Shown here: positions 1,200 to 48,304 of the stretch, piece after piece | Layout of the letters: each line of letters starts with the position of its first letter | Numbering within the stretch: position 1 is the stretch's first letter | The notes under the pieces: model-generated | Database searches by the model: none | The model's input: only the letters and a program-made list of their open reading frames with translations | Told to the model about the DNA's origin: nothing | Source: Calothrix sp. PCC 7716 | GTDB taxonomy: Bacteria; Cyanobacteriota; Cyanobacteriia; Cyanobacteriales; Nostocaceae | Assembly: GCF_019977735.1 (NCBI RefSeq) | Contig: NZ_AP025018.1 | Location: 2,914,001-2,978,000 of the forward strand | Reading direction: 5' to 3' | Length of the DNA stretch: 64,000 nucleotides | Position numbers and translations under genes: made by a program

Positions 1200-1531
1200 T
1201 TGCCGTTTATCGTTTATACTTGGCATTGTGCAATCTACAGTAGGTAATACTTAGCCATGTCTGATACTGACAAAACAGCTAAAGGGAATGTTAAGATTTG
1301 CAACCGTAATCATAATCATAGCGATGATTGGGATGATGGTGGCTGTTGCCAAGATGCCAAAGCAACAAATGATGATAATGTCGGCGCCCTTCGGGTTCGC
1401 CAGTTTGACGGGACGGAAGCCGACACCGCCAACTGGCTCACCAAGAATCAGCAAAAAAAGCTACAGTAACCGAACTTCTGTAAAATATTCTTTGCTCCTA
1501 ATTTAAATTTGACAAAGGAAGCTTGAGAATT
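1200..1531. other. intergenic stretch, no convincing gene
   Basis: Three overlapping frames of 67-72 codons are open here on both strands, but none has a recognisable domain, and their compositions are those expected of shadows. The middle holds a GGCGCCCTTCGGGTTCGCC-type block similar to dispersed cyanobacterial repeats. The last 20 bases carry a weak ribosome binding site (AAAGGAAG) for purH. Confidence 0.5.
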
Positions 1532-3070
1532 ATGGCGCCTCTAGCACTGCTGAGTGTATCGAATAAAACAGGTTTAATCGACCTAGCAAAAAGTTTAGTG
1601 GAAGAATTTGGCTTTGATATAGTTAGCAGTGGAGGAACCGCTAAAGCTTTAAAGGATGCAGGTTTACCAGTAACTAAAGTCGCTGATTATACTGGTTTAC
1701 CCGAAATTTTAGGTGGAAGAGTCAAAACTTTGCATCCACGTATTCACGGTGGAATATTAGCACGTCGTGACATTCCCCAGGATGTAACAGATTTGGAAGC
1801 AAATCAAATTCGTCCTATTGATTTGGTTGTTGTAAATCTTTATCCTTTTGAAGAAACCATATCTAAACCGGGTGTAACTCTAGCTGAAGCTGTAGAGCAG
1901 ATTGATATTGGTGGCCCTGCAATGTTACGAGCAGCATCGAAAAACTTTGCTCATTTAACTGTATTATGTGACCCCGCTCAATATAATGAGTATCTCCAAG
2001 AATTACGACAAAATGGCGCCTCATCATTAGAGTTTCGGCAAAAATGCGCGCTCAAAGGATTTTTACATACTTCGAGTTATGACCAAGCTATATCAGAATA
2101 TCTTGGTAATCTAACTTCTACAGAGACATTACCACAACACTACAGTATTTCCGGTAAGCAAATTCAAGCTTTACGCTACGGAGAAAACCCTCATCAACAA
2201 GCAGGATGGTATCAAACTGGTAGCACGGCAACTGGATGGGCAGCAGCGAGTAAACTTCAAGGAAAGGAACTCAGCTACAATAATTTGGTTGATTTAGAAG
2301 CTGCACGCCAAATTATCGCTGAATTTACCGATAAACCTGCTGCGACAATCATTAAACATACAAATCCTTGTGGTACTGCGATTGGAAATACAATCCACGA
2401 AGCATATACAAAAGCTTACAATGCTGATGCAGTATCGGCGTTTGGTGGAATTGTGGCACTTAACCAACCAATTGATGCGGCAACCGCTACTGAGTTAACA
2501 AAAATATTCTTAGAATGTGTAGTTGCACCAGGGTGTGATAACGAAGCACAAGAGATATTGGCAAAAAAAGCAAATGTCAGGGTATTAATTTTACCTGACT
2601 TGCTCACAGGACCGAAGCAAACCATCAAAGCTGTTGCAGGTGGTTTTCTTGTTCAAGGCGCCGATGATATTATCGCGGACACAAGTAAATGGAATGTCGT
2701 CACCGAGAAAAAACCATCTGACACAGAACTCGAAGAATTATTATTTGCCTGGAAAGTTTGTAAACACGTTAAATCAAACGCCATCGTCATCGCACGTGAC
2801 TATACTACCCTTGGTATAGGCGCCGGACAAATGAACCGCGTTGGTTCTGTGAAAATTGCTCTCGAACAAGCGAACGGTGGCGCCGAAAATGCATTCCTTG
2901 CCAGCGATGCGTTCTTTCCGTTTGATGACTCGGTGCGTACCGCAGCATCTTCAGGAATTAAAGCTATCGTTCAACCAGGTGGCAGTGTTCGCGATGAAGA
3001 TTCTATCAAAGCTGCAAACGAACTGGGTTTAATAATGGTGTTTACAGGAATTAGACACTTCATGCACTAA
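1532..3070 (+). CDS. purH: bifunctional AICAR formyltransferase/IMP cyclohydrolase PurH
   Basis: Catalyses the last two steps of IMP synthesis in the cytoplasm: formylation of AICAR from 10-formyl-THF, then ring closure. The N-terminal MGS-like cyclohydrolase domain (about residues 1-150) shows ALLSVSNKTGL and the GGRVKTLHPRIHGG block. The formyltransferase domain (about 190-512) shows LRYGENPHQ, IKHTNPCGTA and the C-terminal AASSGIKAIVQPGGSVRDED signature. Length is normal for the family (about 510 residues). I chose the ATG at 1532; an in-frame TTG nine bases upstream would add three residues and is less likely. The other purine genes here (purL, purF, apt) are 42-53 kb away, so there is no operon. 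Confidence 0.96.
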   Translation: MAPLALLSVSNKTGLIDLAKSLVEEFGFDIVSSGGTAKALKDAGLPVTKVADYTGLPEILGGRVKTLHPRIHGGILARRDIPQDVTDLEANQIRPIDLVVVNLYPFEETISKPGVTLAEAVEQIDIGGPAMLRAASKNFAHLTVLCDPAQYNEYLQELRQNGASSLEFRQKCALKGFLHTSSYDQAISEYLGNLTSTETLPQHYSISGKQIQALRYGENPHQQAGWYQTGSTATGWAAASKLQGKELSYNNLVDLEAARQIIAEFTDKPAATIIKHTNPCGTAIGNTIHEAYTKAYNADAVSAFGGIVALNQPIDAATATELTKIFLECVVAPGCDNEAQEILAKKANVRVLILPDLLTGPKQTIKAVAGGFLVQGADDIIADTSKWNVVTEKKPSDTELEELLFAWKVCKHVKSNAIVIARDYTTLGIGAGQMNRVGSVKIALEQANGGAENAFLASDAFFPFDDSVRTAASSGIKAIVQPGGSVRDEDSIKAANELGLIMVFTGIRHFMH

Positions 3071-3187: not shown

Positions 3188-3265
3188 GGAGTGTGTGAGG
3201 AGTAAGTTGAAAATACATAAAGCGTCTGGAGTGGAAACACGGTCACACGTCCAGGCGCTTTTTGT
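3188..3265 (+). ncRNA. yfr2: Yfr2-family small RNA, copy 1
   Basis: The 5' part carries GTGTGTGAGGAGT, complementary to the conserved ACUCCUCACAC core of cyanobacterial Yfr1. The 3' part is a strong hairpin (AAGCGTCTGGA paired with TCCAGGCGCTT) whose loop region contains GGAAACA, the signature of the Yfr2 family, followed by a T-run that acts as terminator. A promoter fits: TTGCGG at 3156, a 17-base spacer, TATTCT at 3179. Yfr1 and Yfr2 are near-universal cyanobacterial RNAs whose conserved motifs are nearly complementary to each other. Exact 5' end is inferred. Confidence 0.82.
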
Positions 3266-3289
3266 ATTTTATTTAAAAGTGAAAAATGA

Positions 3290-3420: not shown

Positions 3421-3499
3421 GGAGTGTGTGAGGAGTAAGTTGAGAACAGAAAGCGCTTGGAGTGGAAACACGGTAACACGTCCAGGCGCTTTTTGCTTT
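3421..3499 (+). ncRNA. yfr2: Yfr2-family small RNA, copy 2
   Basis: Same architecture as copy 1: GGAGTGTGTGAGGAGTAAG at the 5' end, then an AAAGCGCTTGGA / TCCAGGCGCTTTTT hairpin with GGAAACA in the loop and a T-run. Upstream, TATTAT at 3412 with TTGTTT at 3390 forms a promoter. The stem bears substitutions relative to copy 1 that largely keep pairing, which supports a functional RNA rather than a decayed copy. Confidence 0.82.
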
Positions 3500-4179: not shown

Positions 4180-4260
4180 GGAGTGTGTGAGGAGTAAGTT
4201 GAAAACAGAAAGCGCTTGGAGTGGAAACACGGTCACACGTCCAAGCGCTTTTTGCTTTTC
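4180..4260 (+). ncRNA. yfr2: Yfr2-family small RNA, copy 3
   Basis: Third copy, with 5' GGAGTGTGTGAGGAGTAAG and a perfect AAAGCGCTTGGA / TCCAAGCGCTTT stem carrying GGAAACA in the loop, then a T-run. Promoter: TTGCCA at 4148, a 17-base spacer, TATTCT at 4171. Where copies 1 and 2 read TCCAGG, this copy has TCCAAG, restoring full Watson-Crick pairing with CTTGGA; this is compensatory variation. Confidence 0.83.
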
Positions 4261-43055: not shown

Positions 43056-43541
43056 ATGACTGTAGTAAGCCAAGTTATTCTCAAAGCCGACGACGAACTG
43101 CGTTACCCTAGCAGTGGCGAACTCAAAAGTATCAAAGACTTTTTGACAACAGGTACACAGCGGGTACGCATTGTTTCTACCCTCTCTGAAAACGAAAAGA
43201 AAATTGTGAGTGAAGCAACTAAACAATTATGGCGTAAGCGTCCTGACTTTATCTCTCCTGGAGGTAATGCTTACGGACAACGTGAGCGCGCTCAATGTAT
43301 CCGCGATTTTGGATGGTACTTACGTCTCGTTACATACGGTGTTCTTGCTGGTGACATAGAGCCAATCGAAAAAATTGGTATTGTTGGCGCCCGCGAAATG
43401 TACAATTCCTTGGGTGTACCCCTACCCGGAATGGTAGAAGCGATAGGTTGTCTTAAAGCTGCGTCTCTCGACCTGCTTACTGCTGACGATGCTACTGAAG
43501 CAGCACCTTACTTTGATTACATCATTCAAGGAATGTCATAA
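43056..43541 (+). CDS. apcD: allophycocyanin alpha-B subunit ApcD
   Basis: A 161-residue phycobiliprotein, a terminal emitter of the phycobilisome core that passes energy mainly to photosystem I. It begins [23 protein letters not shown], which is diagnostic of ApcD, and has the bilin-binding Cys in [16 protein letters not shown] near residue 81. [10 protein letters not shown] and FDYIIQGMS are also conserved. Length is normal. It stands alone, far from the apcAB operon as in other cyanobacteria, and a terminator follows. The small-RNA array behind it runs on the opposite strand. Confidence 0.96.
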
Positions 43542-43609
43542 TCAAACATCTTCTTCGTTAGCGCACTAGCTTGAAGCCTCAATATAAATCATCTATTAAG
43601 ATTGTAACT

Positions 43610-43672
43610 CCCCACAGCTTGTTGGAAAGCTTGGCATTAGTGTCGAATTACCAACGATCTGTGGGGAAATTT
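43610..43672 (+). terminator. terminator after apcD
   Basis: CCCCACAG at 43610-43617 and CTGTGGGG at 43659-43666, then AAATTTTA. A long loop with a small inner stem (TTGTTGGAAAG ... TACCAAC) may shorten the fold. Confidence 0.7.
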
Positions 43673-43691
43673 TATGTACATAACCATAAAA

Positions 43692-43769
43692 ACAAAAAAC
43701 CGACAGTCTCGTTCAAAGGCTGTCGGCGCTTAGTGTGTTCCCTATTAATGACTCGGCTAGAGTTCAGTT
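43692..43769 (-). ncRNA. tandem small RNA, copy 1
   Basis: Read on the minus strand: CTGAACTCTAGCCGAGTC, an AT-rich single-stranded stretch, then CCGACAG/CTGTCGG hairpin and TTTTTTGTTTTT. A -10 box CATAAT lies at 43777-43782. The roughly 70-nt body differs from copy 2 by one base, while the sequence between copies is largely diverged. No open frame is conserved. I do not recognise the family. Confidence 0.8.
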
Positions 43770-43825
43770 ATCTTTTATTATGTGCCATTTTTTCTGTTTG
43801 CGATACGATTTTAATCATCAATGCT

Positions 43826-43841
43826 TGTGATACACGTCACA
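43826..43841 (-). promoter_or_regulatory. CRP-type operator for small RNA copy 1
   Basis: TGTGA-TACACG-TCACA, a perfect match to the TGTGA-N6-TCACA target of cAMP receptor proteins (SyCRP1, AnCrpA). Centre about 64 bases upstream of the inferred start, the spacing of class I activator sites. Confidence 0.75.
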
Positions 43842-43872
43842 CTGTTCAACAACGAAAGCTATGAGTACAAAA

Positions 43873-43950
43873 ACAAAAAACCGACAGTCTTGTTCAAAGG
43901 CTGTCGGCGCTTAGTGTGTTCCCTATTAATGACTCGGCTAGAGTTCAGTT
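43873..43950 (-). ncRNA. tandem small RNA, copy 2
   Basis: Same structure as copy 1: 5' CTGAACTCTAGCCGAGTC, CCGACAG/CTGTCGG terminator stem, T-run TTTTTTGTTTTT. -10 CATAAT precedes it. One C-to-T change in the terminator loop relative to copy 1. Confidence 0.8.
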
Positions 43951-44007
43951 GTCTTTTATTATGCACCCCTTATACTGTGCGCGATACGACCAACATCATA
44001 ATAAGTT

Positions 44008-44023
44008 TGTGATTAGCGTCACA
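44008..44023 (-). promoter_or_regulatory. CRP-type operator for small RNA copy 2
   Basis: TGTGA-TTAGCG-TCACA. Different spacer bases from copy 1 and copy 3, yet both half-sites are perfect, which points to selection on the operator. Confidence 0.75.
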
Positions 44024-44054
44024 CTATAAGCAATTAAACGGATTTACGTGTAAA

Positions 44055-44131
44055 ACAAAAAACCGACAGTCTTGTAAAAGGCTGTCGGCGCTTAGTGTGT
44101 TCCCTATTAATGACTCGGCTAGAGTTCAGTA
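44055..44131 (-). ncRNA. tandem small RNA, copy 3
   Basis: Third copy, with a slightly shorter terminator loop (TTGTAAAAGG on the plus strand) and a T-run TTTTTTGTTTT. The -10 is AATAAT. Body otherwise identical to copies 1 and 2. Confidence 0.8.
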
Positions 44132-44185
44132 TCCTTATTATTCCAGTTTCACAACCGTAAGAAGACGATCTTAATCATGTATCAA

Positions 44186-44201
44186 TGTGATTGTCATCAC
44201 A
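44186..44201 (-). promoter_or_regulatory. CRP-type operator for small RNA copy 3
   Basis: TGTGA-TTGTCA-TCACA, again a perfect palindrome, with its centre about 63 bases upstream of the inferred start. Confidence 0.75.
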
Positions 44202-44512: not shown

Positions 44513-47500
44513 ATGACCGTCTCCTCACAACCTCCGTTTTCTCCTCAAGAAATCGCCTCAGAAGGCATTAAACCCGAAGAATACCAAGAAATATTTAATA
44601 GATTAGGGCGCCATCCCAATAAAGCCGAGTTGGGAATGTTTGGTGTAATGTGGTCAGAACACTGTTGCTATAAAAATTCTCGACCTTTATTAAAGCAGTT
44701 CCCTACCACAGGTAAGCGCATTCTCGTTGGTCCCGGTGAAAATGCTGGTGTTGTAGACATTGGTGATGGTTTACAACTAGCGTTTAAAATCGAATCGCAT
44801 AATCACCCTTCTGCTGTCGAACCATTTCAAGGCGCCGCTACAGGTGTTGGTGGTATACTTAGAGATATTTTTACAATGGGTGCGCGTCCCATTGCTGTAC
44901 TAAATTCGCTGCGATTCGGTTCCTTAGAAGATTCTAGAACTCAAAGATTATTTCAAGGTGTAGTTGCTGGTATAAGTCATTACGGTAATTGCTTGGTAGG
45001 TACTGAAACGCTTGTTTGGCGTGACCATACTGGGGTACACGTTGACACAATTGGGAATTTCGTAGAGTCACGGCTACATTCAAATTTGACTACACTCGAA
45101 ATAAGTGATGAAGAAGCAGTTGAAACGTTATCGATTGACCCTATTACCCACAAAAGTTGTTGGCAAAGGGTAAGACGGGTATTTAAGCGTCGTACTCAAA
45201 CATTAGTAAAAGTAAACACTTGTTTGGGTCGTTCCCTTACCATTACACCAGACCATCCAATGTTTGTTAAATCAAATACTGGATGGGATATTTTGCCTGC
45301 TCAAAACTTAGAGGTTGGTCAGGAACTAGCAATACTTACATCATTACCACAAGATATCTCTAGTGATACTGAAGTACCAGAATTGGATTTACTAAGTACT
45401 CTTAATCTCGAAGATGGTAGTGGAAAAGACGTTTACGTACAACTTCCCCCATGCTGGCAAGCTACAGATATTGTACGTACAGCATTACAATTAATCGAGC
45501 CAAAGGCTGTTAACCGCCATCAGTACACTAAGAATGGGGGTTTTCCATTATCACATTTTCTAAAATTGGAAAACTTATTTGGTGTAACACGTAACGAGGT
45601 TTGCCTGTTTCGCCGAGGTAAAGCGAATTATGCTAGAGCTACTATACAACCAGATGACAAATTTGCACGTTTACTGGGTTACTACTTAAGCGAGGGATGT
45701 GTCTCGCAAAACGGTAACACTTTTAAAATTATCTTTACTTTTGCTCATCACGAACTTGAATATGTTGATGATGTAGCTGATGGGCTTCAAAATCTTGGGT
45801 TACGCCCATGTGTAGAGAAAAGAGTCTCGACAATTGCTGTTTATGCCACATCATGGCTTTTAGGGCATGTTTTAAAAAATGTTTGGCAATGCGGCATAGG
45901 AGCAAGCAGTAAAGCGATACCAGATTTTGTTTTTTTATGGCCGCATCATTTGCAAAAAGAAGTTCTCAAAGGTTTACTTCGAGGAGATGGTTCGCTAACC
46001 ACAAAAACAAATGGAAATCACGCGAAAATCTCTTTCGCAACAGCTAGTCGTAAGTTGTTTGAGCAAACAGTATTGTTGGTTCAATCTCAGGGTGCTATTC
46101 CTTACATCTATTTGCGGTCAGCCACCGAAACGCAAATCAAGGGTCGTAAGCATGTTCGATTGCCACTATGGGAGTTAGAGGTGAGTAACTTCGCTGGCTT
46201 AAAAGCTCTAACTGGTGTTTTTAGTGAAGAACGTAATACTAAGTTAGCAACAGCTTTGGCTCGCTACAATGGTACAAAATATTCTTTCCCTCGTTTTACC
46301 CAATCTTCAGAAGATGTAGTATCCGTCAAAATAAAAGGTATTGAGACGCAGAAAGTAAGCGAATGCGATGTTTACGATGTGGAAGTTGACAATACTCATT
46401 TATTTGTTACCACTTCTGGCATTATTACTCACAATTGTGTCGGGGTGCCCACTGTTGGAGGAGAAGTTTATTTTGACCCAGCTTATTCTGGCAACCCTTT
46501 AGTTAATGTGATGGCACTGGGTTTGATGGAAACGCCAGAAATAGTAAAATCTGGCGCCTCTGGATTTGGCAACCCTGTATTATATGTTGGTTCCACAACA
46601 GGACGCGATGGAATGGGAGGCGCCAGTTTTGCGAGTGCCGAACTGAGCGCGGAATCAATGGATGACCGTCCGGCTGTACAGGTAGGCGACCCATTTTTAG
46701 AGAAATCTTTAATTGAAGCTTGTTTAGAAGCATTTAAAACAGGCGCCGTCGTAGCTGCCCAAGATATGGGAGCAGCAGGTATTACTTGTTCTACTGCCGA
46801 AATGGCGGCAAAAGGTGGAGTGGGGATTGAGTTTGATTTAGATAAAGTACCAGTGCGGGAAACTGGAATGGTGCCTTATGAATACCTACTTTCTGAGTCA
46901 CAAGAACGGATGTTGTTTGTGGCACACAAAGGACGCGAACAAGAGTTAATCGATATTTTCCATCGTTGGGGACTTCATGCAGTTGTTGCAGGTACCGTAA
47001 TTGAAGAACCCATAGTCAGAATTTTATTCAAGGGAGAAATTGCTGCCCTTATTCCGGCTTCGGCATTGGCAGAAAATACCCCCTTATATGAGCGCGTATT
47101 ACTCAAAGAACCACCAGAATATGCCCAAAAAGCTTGGGAATGGACACCTGAAAAATTACCTAGCTGTACAGCATCTGGTATTGAGGTGCAAGGTAAAAAG
47201 CTAAGTTGGAACGATGTTTTATTAACTTTGCTCGATACACCAACTATTGCGTCGAAACGTTGGGTTTACAGTCAATATGACCATCAAGTCCAGAATAATA
47301 CGGTTATGCTTCCAGGTGGCGCCGATGCTGCAATATTAAGATTACGTCCCCTCGAAGGAGTACAAAATTCTACTTTCTATAAGGGTGTTGCTGCTACTGT
47401 TGACTGCAATCCGCGTTACGTTTATCTTGACCCATATGAAGGCGCCAAAGCTGTTGTTGCTGAAGCCGCACGTAATCTTAGCTGTGTAGGCGCCGAACCA

Positions 47501-48304
47501 ATAGCAGTTACAGATAACTTAAATTTTGGTAGTCCAGAAAAACCCATAGGTTACTGGCAATTATCAGAAGCTTGTCGAGGTTTAGCAGAAGGTTGTCGCG
47601 AATTAGAAACTCCTGTCACCGGTGGAAACGTTTCTCTATATAATGAGACACTTGACTCACAGGGAAATCCACAAGCAATTTATCCAACACCTGTAGTGGG
47701 AATGGTCGGTGCAATAGGCAATTTAAACAATATTTGTGGTCAAGCTTGGCAAAAACCAGGTGATGTAATTTACTTATTAGGTGTAACCGTACAATCTAAA
47801 ACCGAACTAGGAGCATCAGAATATTTAGCGACAATTCATAATACTATTGCTGGTAAACCGCCACGTATCGATTTTGATTTAGAACGTCAAGTCCAAAAAG
47901 TTTGCCGTGAAGGAATTCATTTTAATTGGATACGTTCAGCACATGACTGTGCGGAAGGTGGTTTAACTGTAGCACTTGCAGAATGTTGTATTGCCTCCAA
48001 ATGCGGCGCCACTATAGAATTACCATCCAATGACATAGCTAATATACGCTTTGATGAATTGCTGTTTGGAGAAAGTGGCGCCAGAATAGTAGTCTCTGTA
48101 CCACCAGAACTACAAATAGAATGGGAATCATACATAAATAAAAACTTGGCTAATCATTGGCAAAAACTAGGAAAAGTCGGTAATTGCGACACTGGTTTAC
48201 AGGTAACAACATCTGATAACCAAACTTTAATCAGAGTTACGATCGAAGAAATCAGCTCAAACTTTCTTAACGCTATCGAACGAAGACTTTTAATAGAGTG
48301 CTGA
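44513..48304 (+). CDS. purL: phosphoribosylformylglycinamidine synthase PurL, intein-containing
   Basis: A 1263-residue precursor: PurL residues 1-159, an intein 160-641, and PurL 642-1263. The joined exteins make 781 residues, the normal length of the small PurL subunit, which turns FGAR into FGAM with ATP and ammonia supplied by PurQ/PurS. PurL motifs: [48 protein letters not shown], then the broken [18 protein letters not shown]; downstream [33 protein letters not shown]. The intein sits in a conserved active-site strand, so splicing is needed for activity. purF follows on the same strand 400 bases on, separated by repeats. Confidence 0.95.
44990..46435 (+). mobile_element. intein with LAGLIDADG homing endonuclease in purL
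   Basis: 482 codons in frame. The splicing blocks are complete: Cys1 in CLVGTETLV (block A), [10 protein letters not shown] with TxxH (block B), [15 protein letters not shown] (block F) and GIITHN followed by extein Cys (block G). The endonuclease motifs are [10 protein letters not shown] (block C), KAIPDF (block D) and [11 protein letters not shown] (block E), each with its acidic residue (Glu, Asp). All residues for class 1 splicing and for DNA cleavage appear intact, so it may be an active homing element. Confidence 0.95.

Follow-up and report, generated by a model that had tools for sequence, protein, structure and literature searches.

In enterobacteria and Vibrio, short RNAs can be placed under a CRP site, and Spot 42 and VcdRP are CRP-controlled. 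CyaR belongs to the same group and is termed a CRP-dependent riboregulator in the title of a reference in PMC6166021. The cyanobacterial small RNAs NsrR1 and NsiR4 are controlled by NtcA, a protein of the CRP/FNR family (PMC6166021); NsrR1 is described as lying between alr1709 and all1710, with an NtcA site that overlaps the -10 box. NsiR1 of Nostoc sp. PCC 7120 is an RNA of ~60 nt, encoded upstream of hetF in 12 tandem copies that each have their own promoter; these are DIF1 promoters under HetR, and the copies are divergent and have partly different targets (PMC9045159). Yfr1 combines a hardly changing unpaired stretch with a very wide cyanobacterial range (PMC4734099). According to a 2023 review, few functions of cyanobacterial CRP have been identified so far (PMC10117731).

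Here, we describe a locus that is best read as encoding a small RNA of 75-80 nt that acts in trans and is activated by cAMP-CRP, a reading to which we assign a probability of roughly 0.8. The predicted control of the RNA gene by CRP is well supported by comparison of promoter sequences, while its transcription, activation rather than repression, the dependence on cAMP and an action through base pairing are all presumed.

The window, that is, the whole stretch of 64,000 nucleotides that was analysed, corresponds to C1:2914001-2978000 of a 12.37 Mb genome. At 43688-44201 it contains three tandem units on the minus strand, with a start-to-start spacing of 181 and 181, between an allophycocyanin alpha-like gene and an intein-bearing purL (44513-48304, plus strand). 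This agrees with the sequence-only reading, which had placed three minus-strand units about 180 bases apart in the apcD-purL gap. In the direction of transcription, a perfect TGTGA-N6-TCACA is followed in each unit by another conserved block and a -10-like hexamer; then come the transcribed stretch, which hardly differs between the copies, and a hairpin, CCGACAG/CTGTCGG, with its T-run. The features are:

43689..43769, minus strand: small RNA copy 1, inferred +1 near 43769, T-run 43694-43699 (blastn and covariance-model matches, letters checked)
43700..43726, minus strand: terminator hairpin of copy 1 (sequence, folding)
43777..43782, minus strand: -10-like CATAAT of copy 1 (sequence, conserved position)
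43804..43819, minus strand: proximal CRP-like degenerate site of copy 1, centre ~-42.5 (TGA-N6-TC at the place conserved in 119 aligned copies from the host's order)
43826..43841, minus strand: distal perfect CRP-type operator of copy 1, centre -64.5 (sequence)
43870..43950, minus strand: small RNA copy 2, inferred +1 near 43950, T-run 43875-43880 (blastn and covariance-model matches)
43881..43907, minus strand: terminator hairpin of copy 2 (sequence, folding)
43958..43963, minus strand: -10-like CATAAT of copy 2 (sequence, conserved position)
43985..44000, minus strand: proximal CRP-like degenerate site of copy 2 (conserved position, sequence)
44008..44023, minus strand: distal perfect CRP-type operator of copy 2, centre -65.5 (sequence)
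44050..44131, minus strand: small RNA copy 3, inferred +1 near 44131, T-run 44057-44062 (blastn and covariance-model matches)
44063..44088, minus strand: terminator hairpin of copy 3 (sequence, folding)
44137..44142, minus strand: -10-like AATAAT of copy 3 (sequence)
44164..44179, minus strand: proximal CRP-like degenerate site of copy 3, centre ~-40.5 (sequence)
44186..44201, minus strand: distal perfect CRP-type operator of copy 3, centre -62.5 (sequence)
43056..43541, plus strand: allophycocyanin alpha-like gene (apcD), tail-to-tail neighbour in related genomes

The product of 43056-43541 matches the NCBIfam allophycocyanin alpha family below the family cut-off, and the name apcD, taken over from the sequence-only reading, is putative. 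Its closest named relatives, at 98% protein identity, are found in Calothrix sp. PCC 7103, Calothrix sp. HK-06 and Dulcicalothrix desertica PCC 7102. A long imperfect inverted repeat at 43609-43667, 3' of apcD and facing the array (20-nt arms, 85% complementary), is perhaps the apcD terminator. On the other side of the array, the N- and C-terminal splicing regions of the purL intein are at residues 164-252 and 619-642.

Along the transcribed stretch, identity to copy 2 is 99% for copy 1 and 98% for copy 3 (blastn), and the hairpin is present in 3/3 copies, so that the first description of about 70 nearly identical bases ending in a hairpin and T-run is borne out. The same description had the sequence between the units diverge. 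However, units 1 and 2 share 92% identity along 121 nt, and the spacer is therefore not simply diverged. Neither blastn nor the covariance model detects a further full copy of the 81-nt RNA genome-wide, the one remaining match being of 16 nt (E 0.87). All three copies lack ATG and GTG and contain TTG only. A peptide-coding function was rejected on this ground and on account of the indels among relatives, as judged by eye in the alignment. With a hairpin and T-run in every copy and no conserved reading frame, each unit is a complete predicted small-RNA gene with an intrinsic terminator.

The palindrome TGTGA-N6-TCACA occurs three times in the window, each time within the array, against 0.05 expected (100 dinucleotide shuffles, none with three). 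Genome-wide, there are 16 sites versus 7 for a reversed control pattern. The 13 further perfect sites outside the array, for example at C1:44468, C1:522228 and C1:5082123, form a candidate CRP regulon. Relative to the aligned starts, the operator centres of units 1, 2 and 3 are at -64.5, -65.5 and -62.5, and the distance of about 63-65 bases from the inferred start that had been claimed is thus confirmed.

The conservation of this operator was followed in 80 named apcD loci, the top-ranking ones among 489 relatives. The RNA is present in 71 of them, with a total of 88 copies: one copy in 63 loci and two, three or five in the remaining eight. Laboratory strains with the gene include Calothrix sp. 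PCC 7103 (L034), Chlorogloeopsis fritschii PCC 6912 (L045) and Nostoc punctiforme NIES-2108 (L078). All 88 copies have an operator with at most two mismatches at -64.5 +/-4 (none in 33, one in 49, two in 6), against three at a control position, where these three have two mismatches and all others more. The loci with multiple copies are no exception (25/25 copies). Relatives that keep the hairpins and lack the box had been proposed as a counter-argument; they were looked for, and among these 71 loci there are none. In a wider set of 179 distinct blast rows, the palindrome is found at -64 +/-5 with no mismatch in 50 rows, one in 104, two in 17 and more in 8, so that 171 rows have at most two. 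Six of the 8 failures are artefact rows covering the hairpin only; the genuine ones are L141 with three mismatches and L176, a partial match in genome G256, with four. At six control offsets, at most one mismatch is reached in no more than 3 of the 179 rows and at most two in no more than 11. The most frequent operator change in relatives is from the outer T to A. The sequence-only reading of a perfect palindrome in each copy around a freely varying N6 is right in its first part; the N6 is less free than assumed, with t-g-a-n-A-A as the commonest letters in relatives. Judging from this conservation, the operator is an integral part of the RNA gene.

A second promoter block, ATGATt..gATCgT, had previously gone unnoticed. 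It is located at -49 to -36 and is nearly as conserved as the operator in 119 copies from the order, which were aligned on the start and selected for an operator at -64.5. The block keeps TGA-N6-TC at CRP spacing, with its centre at -42.5, that is, 22 bp from the main site. CRP-dependent activation is divided into class I and class II, and the proximal block, two helical turns downstream of the distal site, is close to the class II position and looks like a CRP half-consensus in degenerate form.

Outside the order, 56 copies were collected from 39 RNA-bearing genomes that were picked by hand, partly for divergence. Among 55 of these, 44 have a distal and 11 a proximal site with at most two mismatches, compared to 1 and 0 at control positions; one or the other site is found in 51/56 copies, against 1/56 at control positions. 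A CRP consensus at a class I or class II distance from the inferred +1 is thereby present in 88/88 named copies and in 51/56 copies outside the order. Of the 13 copies in the distant family f58, six (L210, L212, L216, L219, L220 and L233) have their strong site at the proximal position, with 0-1 mismatch, and have lost the distal one, where 4-6 mismatches are counted. Three copies (L223, L228 and L229) have at most two mismatches at both sites, while L226, L234 and one of the two L222 copies have the distal site only and the other L222 copy has neither.

From the geometry of the sites, it may be supposed that RNA polymerase is recruited by one or both CRP dimers. The packing of three perfect sites into less than 400 bp could also suggest that the palindromes repress transcription or merely titrate CRP. 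This seems improbable, given that most of the named loci have a single copy. Furthermore, the site is at a fixed class I-like distance from +1, and in part of f58 it is shifted by about two helical turns, both of which are as expected of activation.

The host genome has eleven matches to the Crp-type HTH, ten of them above the cut-off. The CRP candidate among them is encoded by C1:10443527-10444225. Its product contains GEMAALDEVPRST, which from the known features of E. coli CRP we take to be the cAMP pocket, and the helix RETVTRVLNRLE, presumably the one that reads TGTGA. It matches PDB chains of the CRP family along its length, including the catabolite gene activator at ~1e-20, and scores 84 bits against the NCBIfam CRP equivalog, below the cut-off of 266 bits. 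On these grounds it is a putative CRP orthologue of the SyCRP1/AnCrpA type.

Such an orthologue (match at 1e-50) exists in 333 of 388 sampled genomes of the order and in 94 of the 96 genomes of this sample in which a DNA search finds the RNA (overlap counted by eye; Fisher 1.5e-5, phylogeny ignored). One of the 96, G256, is a 36-nt match with a poor operator that the covariance model does not confirm. In family f1, the RNA is absent from 6 of the 7 genomes without CRP, and also from five that have it (Fisher 2.1e-5, again ignoring phylogeny). A sample of 388 genomes from the class Cyanobacteriia was searched with a covariance model built from 68 diverse copies (E <= 0.001). The RNA is found in 185 of them, including families outside the order as well as the 2.1-2.8 Mb genomes of genus g176. 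CRP is encoded by 282 of the 388 genomes, namely by 173/185 with the RNA versus 109/203 without (Fisher 5.7e-20, phylogeny ignored). Among the 12 genomes with the RNA and without CRP, nine are less than 90% complete. This co-occurrence in both samples, which extends to the host genome itself, speaks for the control by CRP that had been proposed from the array.

Some observations count against the best reading. The RNA is missing from 109 of the 282 CRP-bearing genomes of the class, and G235 (locus L018) keeps the RNA and its operator without a CRP match at 1e-50, for which recent loss, divergence or an assembly gap are candidate causes. AnCrpA, moreover, may use a different motif at nif-related genes (PMC2633013).

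CRP/FNR proteins share their half-site geometry, and the operator could in principle be used by a relative of the cAMP receptor, for example NtcA. A paper on cross-talk between NtcA and CRP is cited in PMC6166021. Nevertheless, we regard this as scarcely probable, as the sites are GTGA-N6-TCAC and not GTA-N8-TAC, and NtcA is called universal in cyanobacteria (PMC3898017), whereas the RNA tracks the presence of CRP.

Of 93 loci found via the RNA, 83 have apcD on the opposite strand at a distance of no more than 1.5 kb. Outside the order it is near only 4/56 copies (in stretches of ~2-3 kb), which is also counted against the best reading. Nine of the named apcD loci are without the RNA; in one of these, L048, the sequence ends 384 nt past apcD. 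L303 has at ~1015 (G512:C1:901815) what by eye seems to be a diverged additional copy, recognized through its core only; such copies may be missed by the model search. Another copy, L227 1501-1582 on the minus strand, has kept the core with a poor 5' stem and no good operator, and is possibly decaying.

The first reading had the locus as a CRP-controlled multicopy small RNA with no described match. The control and the novelty are supported; the multicopy state, on the other hand, is the exception, and the three-copy array is a local expansion of an RNA that in related genomes is mostly single-copy and tail-to-tail with apcD. Arrays beyond the host genus occur at L046 and L075 and, outside the order, for example in G456 (5 matches) and G536 (4 matches). 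From this scattered occurrence, tandem amplification probably took place several times. Tandem repeats that carry hairpins could also be selfish or mobile in nature, or could simply terminate apcD. To this we give hardly any credit, since there are just three copies in 12.37 Mb, the position beside apcD is orthologous in the great majority of the loci found via the RNA, and the part before the terminator is the best conserved.

From its +1, the RNA is predicted to have a small 5' hairpin, then a stretch containing AGGGAACACAC that is for the most part unpaired, and a short linker that leads to the terminator. The stem of the 5' hairpin is GACUC/GAGUC outside the order and ACUC/GAGU within it. 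In folds of single copies, part of the unpaired stretch can pair with the T-rich 3' end. Conservation peaks in the part that precedes the terminator, where the core reads AUUAAUAGGGAACACAC in the host genome and AUCAACAGGGAACACAC, or nearly so, in distant lineages. All 88 named copies have AGGGAACACA, and 55 of the 56 copies outside the order have GGGAACACA, the remaining one reading GGGAACATA. The structural signal is more modest. Covariation in alignment A2 is next to nil (one cell), with too few changes to support either stem. Of the 56 copies outside the order, 54 have a completely paired 5' stem, with two double changes, a count in which pairing is favoured by the choice of the best register for the 5' arm. 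Folding z-scores range from -1.3 to -2.5 and are weak for copies 1 and 2 (-1.3 and -1.5). Conservation therefore appears to reside in the core sequence more than in structure, as described for Yfr1.

Targets were searched for with the exact complement GTGTGTTCCCT, as a perfect 11-mer only, in 40 genomes picked among those bearing the RNA. There are 78 matches, of which 42 are at the RNA genes by position and 36 elsewhere, versus 34 for the reversed control. The perfect complement is thus not enriched in these 40 genomes, and no target gene recurs among the 36 places. Their proteins form two similar pairs, one with 31% and one with 78% identity; in the latter, which involves two genomes, the motif is inside the reading frame.

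It could be imagined that the RNA binds a protein, such as a regulator or an RNA chaperone, or titrates another small RNA, and that the core is a recognition element rather than a sequence that pairs with mRNAs. The lack of enrichment of the perfect complement would fit, and the constancy of GGGAACACA and AGGGAACACA is stricter than pairing with one target needs. A protein partner is a serious alternative to mRNA pairing, even if we consider the whole of this explanation rather doubtful: GGGAACAC is exact in only 59 of the 68 rows of an order alignment selected to be diverse, nothing points to a partner protein, and the complement search covered the perfect 11-mer only. In addition, with its conserved unpaired stretch between a 5' hairpin and a terminator, the RNA has a layout similar to that of antisense small RNAs such as Yfr1 (PMC4734099).

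Under the preferred reading of a CRP-activated, pairing RNA, cAMP-bound CRP would bind the perfect palindrome ~64 bp upstream of each start and may additionally occupy the weaker site two helical turns nearer to the promoter. It would recruit RNA polymerase to a promoter that has a -10 box and no clear -35 box. Upon activation, an RNA of 75-80 nt with a 5' mini-hairpin, an unpaired core and an intrinsic terminator would accumulate. The core would most likely pair with several mRNAs, although this target step is a guess. As there is no difference between the three cores, an additive action of the copies is most likely, and their number would raise the dose of a single regulator.

On a wider scale, the balance tips slightly towards an ancient RNA regulator of the Cyanobacteriia that is a conserved output of cAMP-CRP. 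Its two phased CRP sites would have turned over in relative strength between lineages, its core of ~17 nt would have changed little, and tandem arrays would have formed in several lineages. Such an RNA may give the poorly understood cAMP signalling of cyanobacteria a job. As a widespread gene with a fixed CRP-type operator, it is a conserved candidate member of the CRP regulon and is accessible in laboratory strains; the hardly changing core could be used for target finding, and the arrays in several lineages make the effect of small-RNA gene dosage testable.

That no described RNA matches, as was first stated, is in keeping with Rfam 15, in which no family matches the array at gathering or permissive thresholds apart from snoRNA matches at chance level, and nothing is found in the loci of five relatives. 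Searches of open-access main texts gave no description of the RNA among the papers listed. No cyanobacterial small RNA with a CRP operator appears in the titles and abstract starts of the matches listed, and the core string together with cyanobacteria retrieves a single open-access match, a paper on rice. The main text of PMC2633013, which gave CRP-site predictions in 2009, names neither apcD nor purL. The predicted small RNAs of Nostoc 7120 are given by coordinate only in Table 1 of PMC4734099, and the dRNA-seq tables of this organism may well contain the start site of the RNA.

A comparison with the known systems leads to the same view. Cyano-1 (RF01701) is a small cyanobacterial RNA that also has three copies in the window; the array misses its model, with no match up to E 10, and identity is rejected. 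The Cyano-1 copies, at 3189-3266, 3422-3497 and 4181-4256 on the plus strand after the gene 1523-3070, are a second multi-copy small RNA in the window. NsrR1 and NsiR4 have an NtcA site where the array has a CRP palindrome. Membership in their class was rejected on the conserved GTGA-N6-TCAC; GTN10AC is loose enough to overlap with it, so that only GTA-N8-TAC is truly unmatched. Yfr1 resembles the array RNA in its constant unpaired stretch and wide range, but its CACUCCUCACACC stands against the core GGGAACACAC here and is absent, by eye, from both the consensus and the host row of the 68-sequence alignment, and identity is rejected on this ground; a CRP-type operator is a further feature of the array RNA. 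NsiR1 likewise has a tandem arrangement. Identity is nonetheless rejected, as the array has apcD as its neighbour and its conserved promoter blocks are of the CRP type, and unlike the divergent NsiR1 copies, its cores are identical. In the way it would work, the array is reminiscent of CyaR, Spot 42 and VcdRP, likewise short RNAs under a CRP site. It differs from them by its tandem organization and its occurrence in another phylum, and in Rfam scans it matches no family.
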